Below, piece after piece: positions 15,076 through 38,089 of a stretch of 38,089 nucleotides of DNA (its first letter is position 1; each line of letters opens with the position of its first letter). The stretch is from Chloroflexota bacterium (GTDB lineage Bacteria > Chloroflexota > UBA6077 > FW602-bin22 > JAMCYS01). The notes below the pieces were generated by a model. That model was not told the origin of the DNA. It searched no databases and saw only the letters and a program-made list of their open reading frames with translations. The stretch spans positions 1-38,089 of the forward strand of contig JAMCYS010000046.1 in NCBI GenBank assembly GCA_023473795.1. Direction: 5' to 3'. The position numbers and the translations under genes were made by a program.

Positions 15076-15918
15076 ATGCGAATAGGTGTGCTTGTCTCCC
15101 GCGTGCGGGCCGAGGAAAAGCTCCTCTTTGAGGAGATGGAGCGCCGCGGGCTGGACTTTGATCTGATAGACGACCGTGAAATTATCTTCGACCTACAGCA
15201 GAAACCGCTCGCTCAATACGACCTCATCCTCGAGCGGTGCATCAACCACTCCCGCGCCCTCTACGCCCTCAAGGTGCTGGAGGAGTGGGGCATCAAGTGC
15301 GTGAATAGATACAAAGTGGCCGACAACTGCGGCAACAAGCTGTTGACGACAATGCGGCTCATCGCGGAGGGTCTCCCCACGCCGCAAAACAAGCTCGCCT
15401 TCACTCCCGAGTCCGCGCTGCGGGCCATAGAGGAAATGGGATACCCGGTGGTACTCAAGCCAGCTGTCGGCTCCTGGGGCAGACTGCTGTCGAAGGTCAA
15501 CGATCGCGAGGCGGCGGAGGCCATTCTGGAGCACAAGGAGACGCTCGGCTCCTACCACCACTCAATCTTCTATATCCAGGAGTTCGTCAAGAAGCCCGGG
15601 CGCGACATCCGTAGCTTCGTGGTAGGCGACGAGACTATCTGCGCCATCTACCGCTACTCGGAGCACTGGATCACCAACACCGCCCGCGGCGGCAGGGCTG
15701 ACAACTGCCCCATCACCCCTGAGATCAATGACCTATCGCTGCGTGCGGCCAAGGCCGTCGGCGGGGGCGTCGTCGCGGTCGACCTGCTGGAGAGCGAGCG
15801 CGGCATGCTGGTTAACGAGGTCAACTACACTATGGAGTTCCGCAACTCCATCGCTCCCACCGGGATCAACATCCCGGCGAAGGTCGTCGACTATCTAATC
15901 AAGGAGGCTCAGAGTTGA
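15076..15918 (+). CDS. lysX: LysX: ATP-grasp ligase attaching substrate to LysW
   Basis: A 280-residue RimK-type ATP-grasp enzyme that ligates the alpha-amino group of alpha-aminoadipate (lysine route) or glutamate (ornithine route) to the C-terminal Glu of LysW. Visible parts are the N-terminal pre-ATP-grasp Rossmann segment, [15 protein letters not shown] (ATP-binding lysine region), [19 protein letters not shown], and a C-terminal [13 protein letters not shown] stretch resembling Thermus LysX, where metal and substrate are bound. Which amino acid is used cannot be settled by eye. ATG start with AAGGGG upstream; the stop overlaps the TTG start of lysY (TTGA). Confidence 0.92.
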
Positions 15919-16955
15919 AGGTCTCCATAGTAGGCGGTTCCGGCTACGCCGGCGGCGAGTCGCTGCGGCTGCTTCTGGGCCATCCCAAAGTCACGCTGGG
16001 ACAGGTCACGTCCGAGAGCAACGCCGGCAAGTACGTGCACAGCGTGCATCCGAACTTGAGGAAGCGCACGGATCTCAAGTTCGTCAGCGCCCTCGACTTG
16101 GAGCCCTGCGAGGTGCTCTTTGTGGCGCTGCCCCACGGCAGCTCGATGAAACGCATGCCCGAGTTTCTGTCCGTGGCGGAGCGAGTGATCGACCTCGGCG
16201 CCGATTTCCGCCTGCGCGACCCGGCGGATTACCCGAAGTGGTATGGCGCCCCGCACGCGCGGCCCGACCTGCTGGGGCAGGCCGTCTACGGCATACCGGA
16301 GCTGCATCGCGAGGCGATCAAGAGCGCGCGCATCATCACCGGCGCCGGCTGCAACGCCACCACGACGATTCTTGGCCTGCTACCCCTGTTCAAGCATGGA
16401 CTGGCGGACCCGAGCCGCGTGGTCGTCGAGGTCAAGGTGGGCTCCTCGGAGGCGGGCGCCAAGGCTTCTGACTCGTCGCACCATCCCGAGCGCTCGCACG
16501 CCGTGCGTTCCTTCCAACCGACGATGCACCGGCACACGGCCGAGGTGATGCAGGAGCTGACCTTCGGCGGCCAGACGCCCAAGGTGTATTTCTCCGCCAC
16601 CGCCGTCGAGCTGGTGCGCGGCATCCTCGCCACCTGCCACGTCTTCTTGAAGGACAATCTGGCCGAGAAGGATATCTGGCGCGTCTACCGCCAGGAGTAC
16701 GGCCAAGAGCCGTTCTTGCGCATCGTCAAGGACCGCACAGGCATCTACCGCTACCCGGAGCCCAAGATCCTGGCCGGCTCCAATTTCTGCGACGTGGGCT
16801 TCGAGCGGGACGAGGGCAGCGACCGGCTAGTCGTGATGGCCGCGCTGGACAACCTGATGAAGGGTGCCGCCGGCAATGGCGTGCAGGCCATGAACGTGGC
16901 TTGCGGCTTCGAGGAGACTCTGGGCCTGGAGTTTCTGGGCCTGCACCCCATCTAA
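15915..16955 (+). CDS. lysY: LysY: LysW-linked semialdehyde dehydrogenase (ArgC family)
   Basis: A 346-residue NADPH-dependent reductase of the ArgC fold. It reduces the LysW-bound gamma-phosphate made by LysZ to a semialdehyde. The N-terminus [13 protein letters not shown] is the nucleotide-binding loop. Cys146 in GAGCNATTT is the catalytic thiol. The His-rich HRHTAEV segment carries the likely base. The TTG start overlaps the lysX stop by 4 nt, with AAGGAGG just upstream. Because it sits between lysX and lysZ it is called LysY rather than free-substrate ArgC. Confidence 0.93.
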
Positions 16956-16978
16956 CGACCACCGAGGAGGCGGCCGAG

Positions 16979-17778
16979 ATGATTGTCGTCAAAGTGGGCG
17001 GCAGCGAAGGCATCGACCTGGAGGCATTCTGCCGCGACCTGGCCAACTGCATCAAGTCCGGCGTGGACATTGTGTTGGTCCACGGCGGCTCGCACGACAC
17101 GAATGTACTGTCCGCCAAACTCGGCAAGCCGCCCCGGTTCGTAACCTCTCTCTCAGGCGTGGAGAGCCGCTACACCGACCGGGAAACGCTAGCCATCTTC
17201 ACGATGGTCTACGTTGGCAAAGTGAACAAGTACATAGTCGAGCAGCTGCAGAAGCAGGGCGTCAACGCGGTTGGCCTCTCCGGCATCGACGGCCGCCTGT
17301 TAGAGGGCTCGCGCAAGGAGTTCATCAAGGTCGTCGAGGACGGCAAGCGCAAGGTGCTGCGGGACGACTACACGGGCAAGGTGGAGAAGGTCAACGTTCA
17401 CCTGGTCAAGCTGCTGCGCGACAATGGCTACACACCCGTCATCACCCCGCCGGCCATCTCCTACGAGAGCGAGGCCATCAACGTTGACGGCGACCGCGCT
17501 GCCGCCGTGCTCGCCGCGGCCCTGGGCGCGGAGAAACTGATCATCCTCTCCAACGTGCCCGGTTTGCTGCGCGATGTCAACGACGCATCCTCACTGGTTA
17601 CGGAAATCCGCCGCGACCAGATCGAACGCTATGCCGATTTCGCCAAGGGACGCATGAAAAAGAAGGTGATGGGCGCCGCCGAGGCACTGGCGGAGGGCGT
17701 GCGCGAGGTCGTGTTTGCCGACGCGCGCGGCGAGAACGCGGTCTCCCGCGCGCTCGAAGGGAAGGGTACGGTGATCCG

Positions 17779-17782
<4 letters not shown>
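16979..17782 (+). CDS. lysZ: LysZ: LysW-linked aminoadipate/glutamate kinase
   Basis: A 267-residue amino acid kinase of the acetylglutamate kinase fold. It phosphorylates the side-chain carboxylate of the LysW-bound substrate. N-terminal VVKVGGSEG is the phosphate-binding loop. VHGGSHDTNVL fits the LysZ branch rather than the longer ArgB pattern HGGG. INVDGDRAAAVLAAALGAEKL is conserved nucleotide/substrate-site sequence. The ATG is fixed by GAGGAGG 8 nt upstream; the open frame continues back to 16901 inside lysY. It overlaps lysJ by ATGA. Confidence 0.93.
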
Positions 17783-18935
<1,153 letters not shown>

Positions 18936-18936
<1 letters not shown>

Positions 18937-19964
18937 TGGACGACGCTGCCTTTCTGGGCGAGCTGCTTTCGCTGTATAGCCCCTCGGGTTCGGAGCAGCA
19001 GGTCGCGAACTTGCTGTGCGAGCGCCTGGCCGATCTAGGCTTCCGCAGTTATGTCGATGCTGCCGGCAACCCAGTGGGCGAGATCGGCTCGGGCGAGCGC
19101 GAGATCGTGCTGCTGGGCCACATCGACACCGTGGAGGGCTTCATCGCCGTGCGCCGGGAGGGCGACCTCCTTTACGGGCGCGGAGCTGTGGACGCCAAGG
19201 GCCCGATGGCCGCTTTCATCCTGGCGGCCGCCAGAGCACGACCGCGCAACTTGCGCCTAACCGTAATTGGGGCGGTAGAGGAAGAGGCCGCCAGCTCGCG
19301 CGGCGCCCGCCAGGCCATGCAGCGCCCCCGACCCGAGTTCGCCATCGTCGGCGAGCCGAGCGGTTGGGCGGGGATCACCCTCGGCTACAAGGGCCGGCTT
19401 TGGATCCACTACTCGCTTGTGCGGCCGATGCGTCACTCCGCTGGGCCGGGCCGCTCCGCCCCCGAGGACGCGGTAGCCTTCTGGAACGCTCTTCAGGCAG
19501 CGGCGACGGAGTTCAACCAGGGCAAGCGTCCCTTCGACGCCCTCGACCTGTCGCTGCGGCGCATCAACTCCCGAGCCGATGGCTTCGCCGAGCGAGTGGA
19601 GCAGTTGATTGCCCTACGGGTACCGGTTGATTTCGAGGTCGCCTCGTTCAAGTCCCTCGTCGGCGAGTTGGCCGGGGAGGCCGTCTGTCAATTCAGTAAC
19701 GAGGACCCCGCCTTCCGCGCCAACAAGAACAACCCGCTGGTGCGAGCCTTCACCGCTGCCATCCGCGCGGCCGGTGGCGAGCCGCGCTTCAAGCTGAAGA
19801 CCGGCACCTCGGATATGAACGTGCTGGGCCCCGTCTGGGACTGCCCCATAGTCGCTTACGGCCCGGGCGACTCCAGCCTCGATCACACCCCCAACGAGCA
19901 CGTCTCCCTCGCCGAGTTCCGGCGCGCCGTGGACGTCCTCGCGGCAGTCCTAGAGTCACTATAG
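18936..19964 (+). CDS. lysK: LysK: LysW-lysine/ornithine hydrolase (M20 family)
   Basis: A 342-residue zinc peptidase of the M20 family that releases the finished lysine (or ornithine) from LysW, regenerating the carrier. Metal-site residues are visible: His62 and Asp64 in GHIDT, Asp86 in GAVDAKG, the catalytic Glu pair 115-116, Glu140 in VGEPS, and a C-terminal His in LDHTPNEHV. Length fits LysK and is shorter than typical ArgE/DapE. It is the last gene of the operon; the start overlaps the lysJ stop. No terminator is evident in the following 230 bp. Confidence 0.92.
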
Positions 19965-34918: not shown

Positions 34919-35031
34919 TAGCAACTGCTTCAACCGACGTCCAAGACCGCCAGCTGCGTCACGGGCTCCGGCTGCCGACCTTGTGTCTGAGCCGGACCTG
35001 CCCTTGAGCAATTAAGGCTAGAGAGGTGCGC

Positions 35032-35655
35032 ATGTACGCGAACAAGACCATCGGCGAATTCCTCCGGGAACTATCGTCTGGAGCGCCGACGCCAGGCGGG
35101 GGCAGTGCCGCGGCGCTGAGTGGCGCGACGGGCGCAGCACTCGTCTGCATGGTCTGCAATCTGACCATCGGTAGAGAGAAGTATAAGGCAGTCGAGAGCG
35201 AAATGCAGACGATCCTGGCGCAAGCCAGCAGTCTGCGCGATGAGCTGCTCGCCGCCATTGACGCCGACGTGGCCGCCTACGGTGTGGTGGCAGCCGCTAG
35301 CAAGATGCCTCGCGGCACCGACGAAGAGAAAGCGGCACGCACTCGCGCCCTGCAGGCGGCGCTCAAGGCGGCCACGCGGCCGCCGCTAGACACGGCTCGC
35401 CTTTGCGCCGAAGTGATGGGACTGTGCCGGCCGGTGGGTGAGCGAGGCAACGTCAATGCCGTCAGCGATGCCGGGGTTGGCATTGCCGAGGCGGAGGCAG
35501 GGCTGCGCTCGGCAGCCTTGAACGTGAAGATCAATCTGGGACTGATCAAGGACCCCGACTTTGTGGCCGAAGCCCAGCGAATGCTGAACGGGTACCTGGC
35601 AGGGAAGGCCGAACTGCGCGAGGCAGTGCTGCGTACCGTTGAAGCGAAACTATAG
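35032..35655 (+). CDS. fchA: FchA: methenyl-THF cyclohydrolase / cyclodeaminase family
   Basis: A 207-residue, mostly helical protein of the formiminotransferase-cyclodeaminase C-terminal family. The N-terminus TIGEFLRELSSGAPTPGGGS is the folate-binding signature of the family. MPRGTDEEKAAR and the GNVNAVSDAGVGI segment are also typical. Stand-alone members act as methenyl-THF cyclohydrolase (FchA of methylotrophs and acetogens) or deaminate formimino-THF. No formiminotransferase is adjacent; folD and fhs are, favouring cyclohydrolase. ATG with GAGAGG 5 nt upstream. First gene of the operon. Confidence 0.88.
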   Translation: MYANKTIGEFLRELSSGAPTPGGGSAAALSGATGAALVCMVCNLTIGREKYKAVESEMQTILAQASSLRDELLAAIDADVAAYGVVAAASKMPRGTDEEKAARTRALQAALKAATRPPLDTARLCAEVMGLCRPVGERGNVNAVSDAGVGIAEAEAGLRSAALNVKINLGLIKDPDFVAEAQRMLNGYLAGKAELREAVLRTVEAKL

Positions 35656-35681
35656 GTCGCATGACCTGCACTGGAGGGCAT

Positions 35682-36545
35682 ATGGTAGCGAGAGTCCTGG
35701 ATGGCAAAGCCCTGGCGGCGGCGATGAAGGAAGAACTCAAGGGCGCGGTCGCCGCCTTCAAGTCCGAACACGGCTTCGTCCCCGGCATCACCGTGGTGCA
35801 GGTAGGCCATGACCCGGCTTCAGAGCGCTACGTGAGGCAAATCGGGCGCAGCTTCGAGGACGTAGGGATGACGTTCTCGCTCCACCAGCCGGAGACTTCT
35901 ATCACCCAGGCGGAGATGGTCGGTCTAGTCGAGGATCTGAACGATGACCCGGCCGTCAGCGGCATCATCGTCCAGATGCCCCTGCCCAAACACCTGCCAC
36001 AGGAGGCGGTGGCCAACGGCATCGCCCCGCAAAAGGACGTGGACGGCATCAACCCAACCAACGCGGGTCGGTTGCTCGCCGGGAGCGGCCAGTTCTTCGC
36101 CCCGGCGACGCCAAGCGGCGGGATGGAGATTCTGCGGCGGGAGGGCGTCGAACTGAGCGGCAGGCGCGCCGTGGTAGTCGGGCGCAGCAACATCGTCGGC
36201 AAACCGATGGCGCTGCTGCTCCTGCACCAGAATGCCACCGTTACCATCTGTCACTCCCGCACGCGCGACCTGCCGGCGGTGTGTAGAGAGGCGGACATCC
36301 TCGTCGCCGCCATAGGCAAGCCGCGATTCATTACGCAGGACATGATCAAACCGGGCGCAATTGTGATAGACTTCGGCGTCAACGTGGTTAACGGCAAGGC
36401 CGTTGGCGACGTAGACTACGAGGCGGCGCTGGAGACCGCCTCTGCCATCACCCCGGTGCCCGGCGGCACGGGACCCATGACTAATGTGATGCTGCTGCGC
36501 AATACTCTGCGCGCCGCGGAACTGCTGCTTGCGGAGAAGGGTTGA
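35682..36545 (+). CDS. folD: FolD: methylene-THF dehydrogenase with cyclohydrolase lysine replaced
   Basis: A 287-residue enzyme of the FolD family, oxidising methylene-THF to methenyl-THF with NAD(P). Tyr50, Gln98 (VQMPLP) and Asp121 (KDVDG) of the active site are present at E. coli numbering, as are GRSNIVGKP (NADP loop) and TPVPGGTGPMT. The catalytic Lys54 of E. coli FolD (Lys56 in human) is Ile here (codon ATC in YVRQIG). This lysine is required for cyclohydrolase activity, so this FolD is predicted to be a dehydrogenase only. The ATG is chosen for GGAGG upstream. It lies 26 bp after fchA. Confidence 0.92.
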   Translation: MVARVLDGKALAAAMKEELKGAVAAFKSEHGFVPGITVVQVGHDPASERYVRQIGRSFEDVGMTFSLHQPETSITQAEMVGLVEDLNDDPAVSGIIVQMPLPKHLPQEAVANGIAPQKDVDGINPTNAGRLLAGSGQFFAPATPSGGMEILRREGVELSGRRAVVVGRSNIVGKPMALLLLHQNATVTICHSRTRDLPAVCREADILVAAIGKPRFITQDMIKPGAIVIDFGVNVVNGKAVGDVDYEAALETASAITPVPGGTGPMTNVMLLRNTLRAAELLLAEKG

Positions 36546-36617: not shown

Positions 36618-38089
36618 GTGAGCGAAAGCAAACCGGTACCCAGCGACCTTGAAATTGCCCAGGCGGCACAGATGAAGCCGATCGCCGCCATTGCCGAGGA
36701 GCTCGGCCTTACGGACGACGAAATTGAGCTCTATGGCAAGTACAAGGCGAAGGTCTCTCTCGACGTCCGGGAGCGCCTGAAGGACAAGCCCAATGGCAAG
36801 TACATCGACGTGACGGCCATCACGCCAACGCCTTTGGGTGAGGGCAAGACCGTAACTACCATTGGCCTGTCCATGGCACTAAATCGCATCGGCAAGAAGA
36901 CGGTGACCTGCATTCGCCAGCCCTCACTCGGGCCCGTCTTCGGCATCAAGGGCGGCGCGGCCGGCGGCGGTTATTCCCAGGTCGTGCCCATGGAGGACTT
37001 CAACCTCCATCTCACCGGCGACACGCACGCCGTGTCCATGGCGCACAACCTTCTCGCCGCTTTCGTCGACAATCATATTATGCACGGCAACTCCCTGGAC
37101 ATCGACCCCTTCAGCATCACCTGGCCGCGTGTCTTGGACATCAGCGACCGCTCCCTGCGCCGGATCGTCATTGGCCTTGGGGGCAAGGACAATGGCGTAC
37201 CGCGGGAATCTGGCTTCGACATCGCCGTGGCCTCTGAAGTGATGGCGATCCTCGCCCTCACCACGGGCCTGCGGGACCTGCGCGAGCGACTGGGTCGAAT
37301 CGTCATCGGCTTCAGCAAGAGCGGCAAGCCAATTACCGCCGACGACCTGCACGCCGCGGGCGCGATGACGGTGTTGATGCGCGATGCGATCAAGCCCAAC
37401 CTGCTGCAAACACTGGAGCACACGCCGTGCTTTGTGCACGCGGGACCCTTCGCCAACATCGCGCACGGCAACAACTCAATCGTCGCCGACCAGATCGCCC
37501 TCAAGCTGGGCGACTACGTGGTTACCGAGAGCGGCTTCGGGGCAGACATGGGCGCCGAGAAATTCATGGATATCAAATGCCGCTATTCCGGCCTGACGCC
37601 GAACTGCGTAGTGATCGTGGCCACCGTGCGCGCCCTCAAGATGCACAGCGGCCGCTTCAAGGTAGTCGCGGGCAAGCCGCTCGACCCTGGTTTGGTGCAG
37701 GAGAACCTGCTGGCGGTCGCGGACGGCTGCGCCAACCTCGAGAAGCAGGTCGAGAACATGAAGCAGTTTGGCGTGCCCGTGGTCGTCGCCCTCAACCGCT
37801 TCACCGCCGACACCAGCAAGGAGATCGAGTTGGTGCAGAAGAGGGCGGTAGAGGCAGGGGCCGAGGGCGCCTACGTCAGCGAGGTCTGGGCGAAGGGCGG
37901 TGCCGGCGGCGAGGAATTGGCCCGGGCAGTGGCCAAAGCGGCCGATAAGCCGAGTAACTTCCAGTTCCTCTACCCGCTAGACGCTTCCATCAAGGAGAAG
38001 ATCGAGGCGATCGCCACGAAGATCTACGGCGCCGACGGCGTGGACTACCTGCCGGCCGCGGAGCAGAAGATCCGGCTGTACACCAAGAC
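36618..38089 (+). CDS. fhs: formate-tetrahydrofolate ligase (C-terminus beyond window)
   Basis: 490 codons are visible with no stop; the family length of about 555 means roughly 65 residues are missing. The enzyme joins formate to THF using ATP. The ATP loop [10 protein letters not shown] is at 69-78. [29 protein letters not shown] and [14 protein letters not shown] are strongly conserved FTHFS segments. GTG start with GGAGGAAG about 8 nt upstream, 72 bp after folD. With fchA and folD it completes the reversible formate to methylene-THF segment. Confidence 0.95.

Follow-up and report, generated by a model that had tools for sequence, protein, structure and literature searches.

A FolD without the catalytic lysine beside a stand-alone FchA-like protein in a Chloroflexota genome

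The fchA-folD-fhs locus

The window is the whole 38,089-nucleotide stretch of Chloroflexota DNA that was analyzed. It contains fchA, folD, and the 5' part of fhs on one strand (Table 1), with intergenic gaps of 26 and 72 bases. A GGAGG-type ribosome-binding site precedes folD, and another precedes fhs. A second in-frame ATG lies upstream of folD at 35661, and the GGAGG site matches the ATG at 35682. The fhs frame remains open at the window end and enters a scaffold gap (a run of Ns) within the contig of 45,424 bases.

Table 1. Genes and active-site codons of the fchA-folD-fhs locus, in window coordinates
Feature	Position	Strand	Description
fchA	35026..35655	+	Stand-alone FTCD_C-family protein of 209 aa with a GTG start; possible alternative ATG start at 35032
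folD	35682..36545	+	287 aa, complete; probable methylene-THF dehydrogenase with predicted loss of cyclohydrolase activity
Gln40 codon	35799..35801	+	Polar, typical of Lys-less FolDs; Leu/Ile in Lys54 FolDs
Ile54 codon (ATC)	35841..35843	+	Replaces catalytic Lys54 in the alignment with E. coli FolD
Asn268 codon	36483..36485	+	Polar, typical of Lys-less FolDs; mostly Ile/Val in Lys54 FolDs
fhs, 5' part	36618..38089	+	Formate-THF ligase; PF01268, 763 bits

The window FolD contains the Pfam domains PF00763 (118.3 bits) and PF02882 (221.6 bits), both far over their cut-offs. Its AlphaFold2 model (pLDDT 92.8) has the FolD fold, with TM scores of 0.87-0.96 to solved FolD/MTHFD structures. The reference was E. 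coli K-12 FolD (locus L192, NC_000913). The stretch around residue 54 aligns without gaps (ASERYVRQIGRSFEDV in the window and ASQIYVASKRKACEEV in E. coli). The two proteins share the fold, the cofactor domain, Tyr50, Gln98, and Asp121. They differ at residue 54, which is Lys in the bifunctional E. coli enzyme and Ile in the window, and at positions 40 and 268. The first-pass annotation had described the ungapped match, the ATC codon, and the three retained residues, and translation and alignment confirmed this. The YxxxK motif of bifunctional FolDs, with the catalytic Lys54, is absent. The cofactor loop GRSNIVGKP (GxSxxVG) is intact. The window FolD is a normal, well-kept FolD minus one catalytic residue and not a decayed gene, because its frame is complete, its fold match is good, and its cofactor loop and other site residues are kept.

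Ile54 is also present in the three nearest relatives (70%, 64%, and 64% identity), so a sequencing error was ruled out as its source. It is not due to chance either, since 78 of the 79 other FolD-like ORFs among the cross-phylum relatives fetched have Lys54. Lys-less FolDs with an adjacent fchA were found in the relatives Chloroflexi bacterium FW602_bin.16 and Dehalococcoidia fen_1078. Both of these FolDs fall in the same tree clade as the window FolD.

The gene directly upstream had been named a stand-alone fchA of the FTCD_C family, and this stands. PF04961 (224 bits) is its only domain, and no formiminotransferase domain is attached. The NF045657 FchA model covers the full length at 260.8 bits. 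This is narrowly under the 275-bit cut-off, so the strict wording is "FchA-like." The protein shares 50% identity with PDB 7vg4, which its depositors named "Methenyltetrahydrofolate cyclohydrolase," and keeps 14 of the 14 columns conserved across 146 FchA sequences. These matches point to a methenyl-THF cyclohydrolase.

The host genome is 4.44 Mb and 95.9% complete. It contains a single FolD, and fchA is its sole FTCD_C gene; no second copy of either was found at this completeness. Urocanase was not found in the genome (~96% complete), which leaves the window FTCD_C protein outside a histidine-degradation context. A formiminotransferase-domain protein is encoded on another contig (G000:C94:14921-15835, equivalent to L446 5922-6836), and no histidine genes were recognized near it. 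In a genome without urocanase, it may have another role in folate metabolism.

Elsewhere in the window, positions 15076-19964 contain, in a row, matches to a LysX-type ATP-grasp protein, a semialdehyde dehydrogenase, an amino acid kinase, a class III aminotransferase, and an M20 peptidase. This row looks like a LysW-dependent lysine/ornithine pathway. Just beyond the window, near the scaffold gap, two FhaA-like ORFs and a third FHA ORF lie in a row (L172 3440-5733). Their scores are near equal, and the first two are ~1.1 kb apart, which reflects either gene duplication or an assembly artefact.

Residue 54 and fchA in Chloroflexota and Clostridia

Residue 54 and the presence of FTCD_C were recorded for each of 164 Chloroflexota and 119 Clostridia genomes, a nonrandom sample picked partly on best FolD score and partly on FTCD_C match. 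Chloroflexota with a stand-alone FTCD_C comprised 74 genomes with Lys-less FolDs only and 1 with Lys54. Those with an FTCD-length ORF, located away from folD, comprised 18 with Lys54 and 0 Lys-less. Those without FTCD_C comprised 56 with Lys54 only, 2 with both kinds, and 13 Lys-less only. Clostridia with a stand-alone FTCD_C comprised 54 Lys-less only, 2 with both kinds, and 3 with Lys54; without FTCD_C, 58 had Lys54 and 2 were Lys-less. The FTCD_C gene was carried by 84 of 245 sampled Clostridia genomes (about one third). Across both classes, 131 genomes had no FTCD_C gene, and a Lys54 FolD was present in 116 of them.

Scoring residue 54 against adjacent fchA had been proposed from the window sequence. 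A stand-alone fchA in the same fetched locus was found with 108 FolDs of the two classes, and all 108 lack Lys54. Among 116 fchA-folD pairs, 113 have fchA upstream of folD and on its strand. Lys-less FolDs are not commonly found without the partner, as a stand-alone FTCD_C gene is present in 130 of the 147 genomes that have one. The link between lysine loss and fchA appears strong, having held across divergent genomes in two groups. It supports the earlier reading in which FolD would dehydrogenate, FchA would hydrolyze, and Fhs would ligate formate.

The survey counts are not independent, because the Lys-less FolDs trace to few changes on the tree. Explaining the Lys54 state on a tree built from 115 FolDs takes 3-4 changes (the Chloroflexota clade, the Clostridia clade, a Gln54 pair, and a tandem copy). 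Fisher tests gave p-values of 4e-25 and 1e-27. Given the tree, reading them as many independent events was rejected. There were 3 independent pairs, too few to reach significance. A single origin of the Chloroflexota and Clostridia Lys-less clades was not rejected (p 0.77), and the likelihood was better when they were held together. On this ground, Ala54/Phe98 (Clostridia) and Ile54/Gln98 (Chloroflexota) are no longer read as independent losses, nor are the changes that both classes share at positions 40 and 268 read as convergent. On this tree, the Lys-less FolDs make up one or two old clades and two small groups. The first-pass annotation had called Lys54 invariant. This proved wrong, as the residue is missing from one or two large FolD clades.

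In Chloroflexota, residue 54 is replaced by Ile, Leu, or Val; in Clostridia, the replacement is mostly Ala or Ile. Clostridia Lys-less FolDs usually have Gln98 changed as well, to Phe or Leu. Position 40 is Leu/Ile in Lys54 FolDs and becomes Arg/Gln (Chloroflexota) or Arg (Clostridia) in Lys-less FolDs. Position 268 is mostly Ile/Val in Lys54 FolDs and becomes Asn or Thr in Lys-less FolDs of both classes. In human numbering, the catalytic lysine is Lys56; it is caged by hydrophobic residues, and Val280 is among the residues that surround it (PMC3368264). Position 268 equals human Val280 by offset from E. coli, and position 40 is on the same strand as, and in phase with, two other lysine-surrounding residues; both mappings are by numbering and not by coordinates.

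The lysine had been described as necessary for cyclohydrolase and not for dehydrogenase activity, which agrees with published E. coli mutants (PMC5688156). K54N keeps ~19% of dehydrogenase activity, and its cyclohydrolase activity is undetectable. The latter is also undetectable in the K54-R55 deletion. Q98H keeps ~8% of dehydrogenase and ~1% of cyclohydrolase activity. These mutants argue against a FolD that is still bifunctional, in which another residue (e.g., Gln40 or Asn268) would replace Lys54 and FchA would merely add capacity. Positions 40 and 268 are polar in most Lys-less FolDs and hydrophobic in most Lys54 FolDs, which fits such a replacement. However, Gln98 is gone too in many Lys-less FolDs. 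Loss of function also fits better than extra capacity because 0 of the 108 fchA-linked FolDs keep Lys54. We consider continued bifunctionality very improbable.

In E. coli, K54N and Q98H emerged as mutations conferring resistance to carolacton, which binds directly to Lys54 (PMC5688156). Lys54 loss may have been selected as protection from such natural inhibitors, with FchA compensating. Such selection would explain why the lysine was lost and does not conflict with a division of labor between FolD and FchA. Position 98 is often changed too in Lys-less FolDs, in line with such selection; however, there is no evidence of exposure, and the clades span very different organisms. We regard selection by inhibitors as improbable. 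Tentatively, the fchA-linked FolDs could form a separate subfamily with a remodeled active site, in which Asn/Thr268 and the polar Arg/Gln40 of the adjacent strand replace Lys54 in the dehydrogenase reaction. Its members would be obligate FchA partners and would probably be blind to Lys54-binding inhibitors such as carolacton.

Exceptions and tandem FolD genes

Seventeen Lys-less genomes had no stand-alone FTCD_C. Four of these (G143, G135, G274, and G239; loci L167, L168, L169, and L170) encode a FolD-like protein whose C-terminal part weakly matches the FchA profile (hhalign probability 83, P 9e-6). These proteins are without Tyr50, Lys54, Gln98, and Asp121. They are likely FolD-FchA fusions, for which structure prediction gave a poor model (pLDDT 41.5). 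Two genomes (G114 and G057) have a second FolD with Lys54. Eight are incomplete (G212, G328, G313, G250, G032, G257, G285, and G161; 58-89% complete). In the remaining three (G301, G403, and G590), a lenient search for FchA gave chance-level matches only.

Two Chloroflexota genomes encode two FolDs side by side, G114:C13 (L204 1734-3593) and G057:C15 (L211 1311-3128; wider views, L452 and L453). No FTCD_C gene was found in either genome. The first tandem FolD combines Ile54 with the loop GRSNIVGKP. The second retains Lys54 and Gln98, and its cofactor loop is destroyed (SADNLVGKP or NVDNMVGKP). This loop is kept in 213 of 218 Lys54 FolDs. The G057 pair lies in a Wood-Ljungdahl cluster, where it separates the fhs, RACo, and CbiA-family genes from those of the CdhD and CODH families. 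The simplest reading of these sequences is that one copy would be a dehydrogenase and the other a cyclohydrolase. The reciprocal losses back the role of Lys54 independently of FchA. The pairs would illustrate a natural division of one enzyme into two.

Genomes G184 and G425 have a Lys54 FolD and a stand-alone FTCD_C located among unrelated genes. Genomes G437 and G537 also have Lys54 despite a stand-alone FTCD_C, which sits near a formiminotransferase-domain gene and not beside folD. This FTCD_C protein is probably a cyclodeaminase, because it is in an apparent histidine-degradation operon, as judged by the formiminotransferase match and by ORFs whose sizes fit the other histidine genes.

The same could apply to the window. 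Its FTCD_C protein could be the formimino-THF cyclodeaminase of histidine breakdown, with methenyl-THF converted to 10-formyl-THF spontaneously and Fhs supplying the rest. The family is the same, and the cyclohydrolase step can also proceed spontaneously (PMC5688156). The gene is near a formiminotransferase-domain gene, in an apparent histidine-degradation operon, in G466 and G581 as well as in G437 and G537. A cyclodeaminase role is still conceivable because the host encodes its own formiminotransferase-domain protein. However, urocanase was not found in the 96% complete host genome, the gene sits with folD and fhs, and its top match is a cyclohydrolase. G437 and G537 keep Lys54, and FTCD-length proteins are not tied to lysine loss. 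We consider this explanation unlikely, and the window FchA is unlikely to be purely a cyclodeaminase.

Some further FolDs were observed. In G581, a Lys54 FolD is broken by one in-frame TAA, and a Lys-less FolD is present elsewhere in the genome (L343 and L390). This is possibly a replacement caught midway or a sequencing error. Its stand-alone FTCD_C is near the formiminotransferase-domain gene (L456). The FolDs of G515 (L399) and G466 (L409) have Gln54, Gln98, and Leu40, and their genomes contain a nonadjacent stand-alone FTCD_C. These Gln54 FolDs are a third kind of Lys54 loss. In Mameliella alba (L064 4573-5772), a second FolD-like ORF with Gln54 and Glu121 overlaps and follows a Lys54 FolD.

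Probable division of labor and known systems

The window locus very probably encodes a monofunctional FolD dehydrogenase, an FchA cyclohydrolase, and Fhs in one folate one-carbon operon, as judged from sequence comparison. FolD without Lys54 would convert methylene-THF to methenyl-THF, or the reverse, with NAD(P). FchA would interconvert methenyl-THF and 10-formyl-THF. Fhs would form 10-formyl-THF from formate, THF, and ATP. The three genes are probably cotranscribed. FchA probably preceded the lysine loss or coincided with it. The loss of Lys54 beside fchA appears to be a genuine and ancient division of a bifunctional enzyme, because all 108 sampled genomes in which the genes are neighbors are without Lys54.

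The window locus is a further case of the FolD, FchA, and Fhs arrangement known from Clostridium perfringens and is not new in kind. Aluri and colleagues reportedly found in 2016 that the C. perfringens FolD is a dehydrogenase only and that FolD and FchA together replace E. coli FolD. The two systems are alike in that a separate FchA carries the cyclohydrolase step, and they differ in phylum. For this separate FchA, PMC7219735 cites the 2016 paper of Aluri and colleagues (doi 10.1099/mic.0.000209). Partner FolDs of the sampled Clostridia mostly have Ala54 and Phe98, whereas the window FolD has Ile54 and Gln98.

In methylotrophs (Methylobacterium), MtdA is a dehydrogenase without cyclohydrolase activity and is encoded beside FchA. 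The FchA of Methylobacterium bullatum is 51% identical to the window FchA. The ORF adjoining M. bullatum fchA matches the FolD profile weakly (25 bits). The dehydrogenase at this locus is presumably MtdA, unlike the window FolD. Yeast MTD1 (PDB 1edz) is a FolD-family dehydrogenase without cyclohydrolase activity, according to titles cited in PMC11064299. It is eukaryotic and very distant from the window FolD (E 4e-12). It is not known to have an FchA partner.

Databases tend to label every FolD bifunctional, and the NCBIfam models listed for the window FolD are all so named (25/25). For a large part of the Chloroflexota sampled, and for many sampled Clostridia that carry FTCD_C, the label is probably wrong. 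One residue (54) and the neighboring gene would tell which FolDs are mislabeled. Metabolic modeling of the Wood-Ljungdahl and reductive glycine pathways may be affected, as may efforts to target FolD with drugs.
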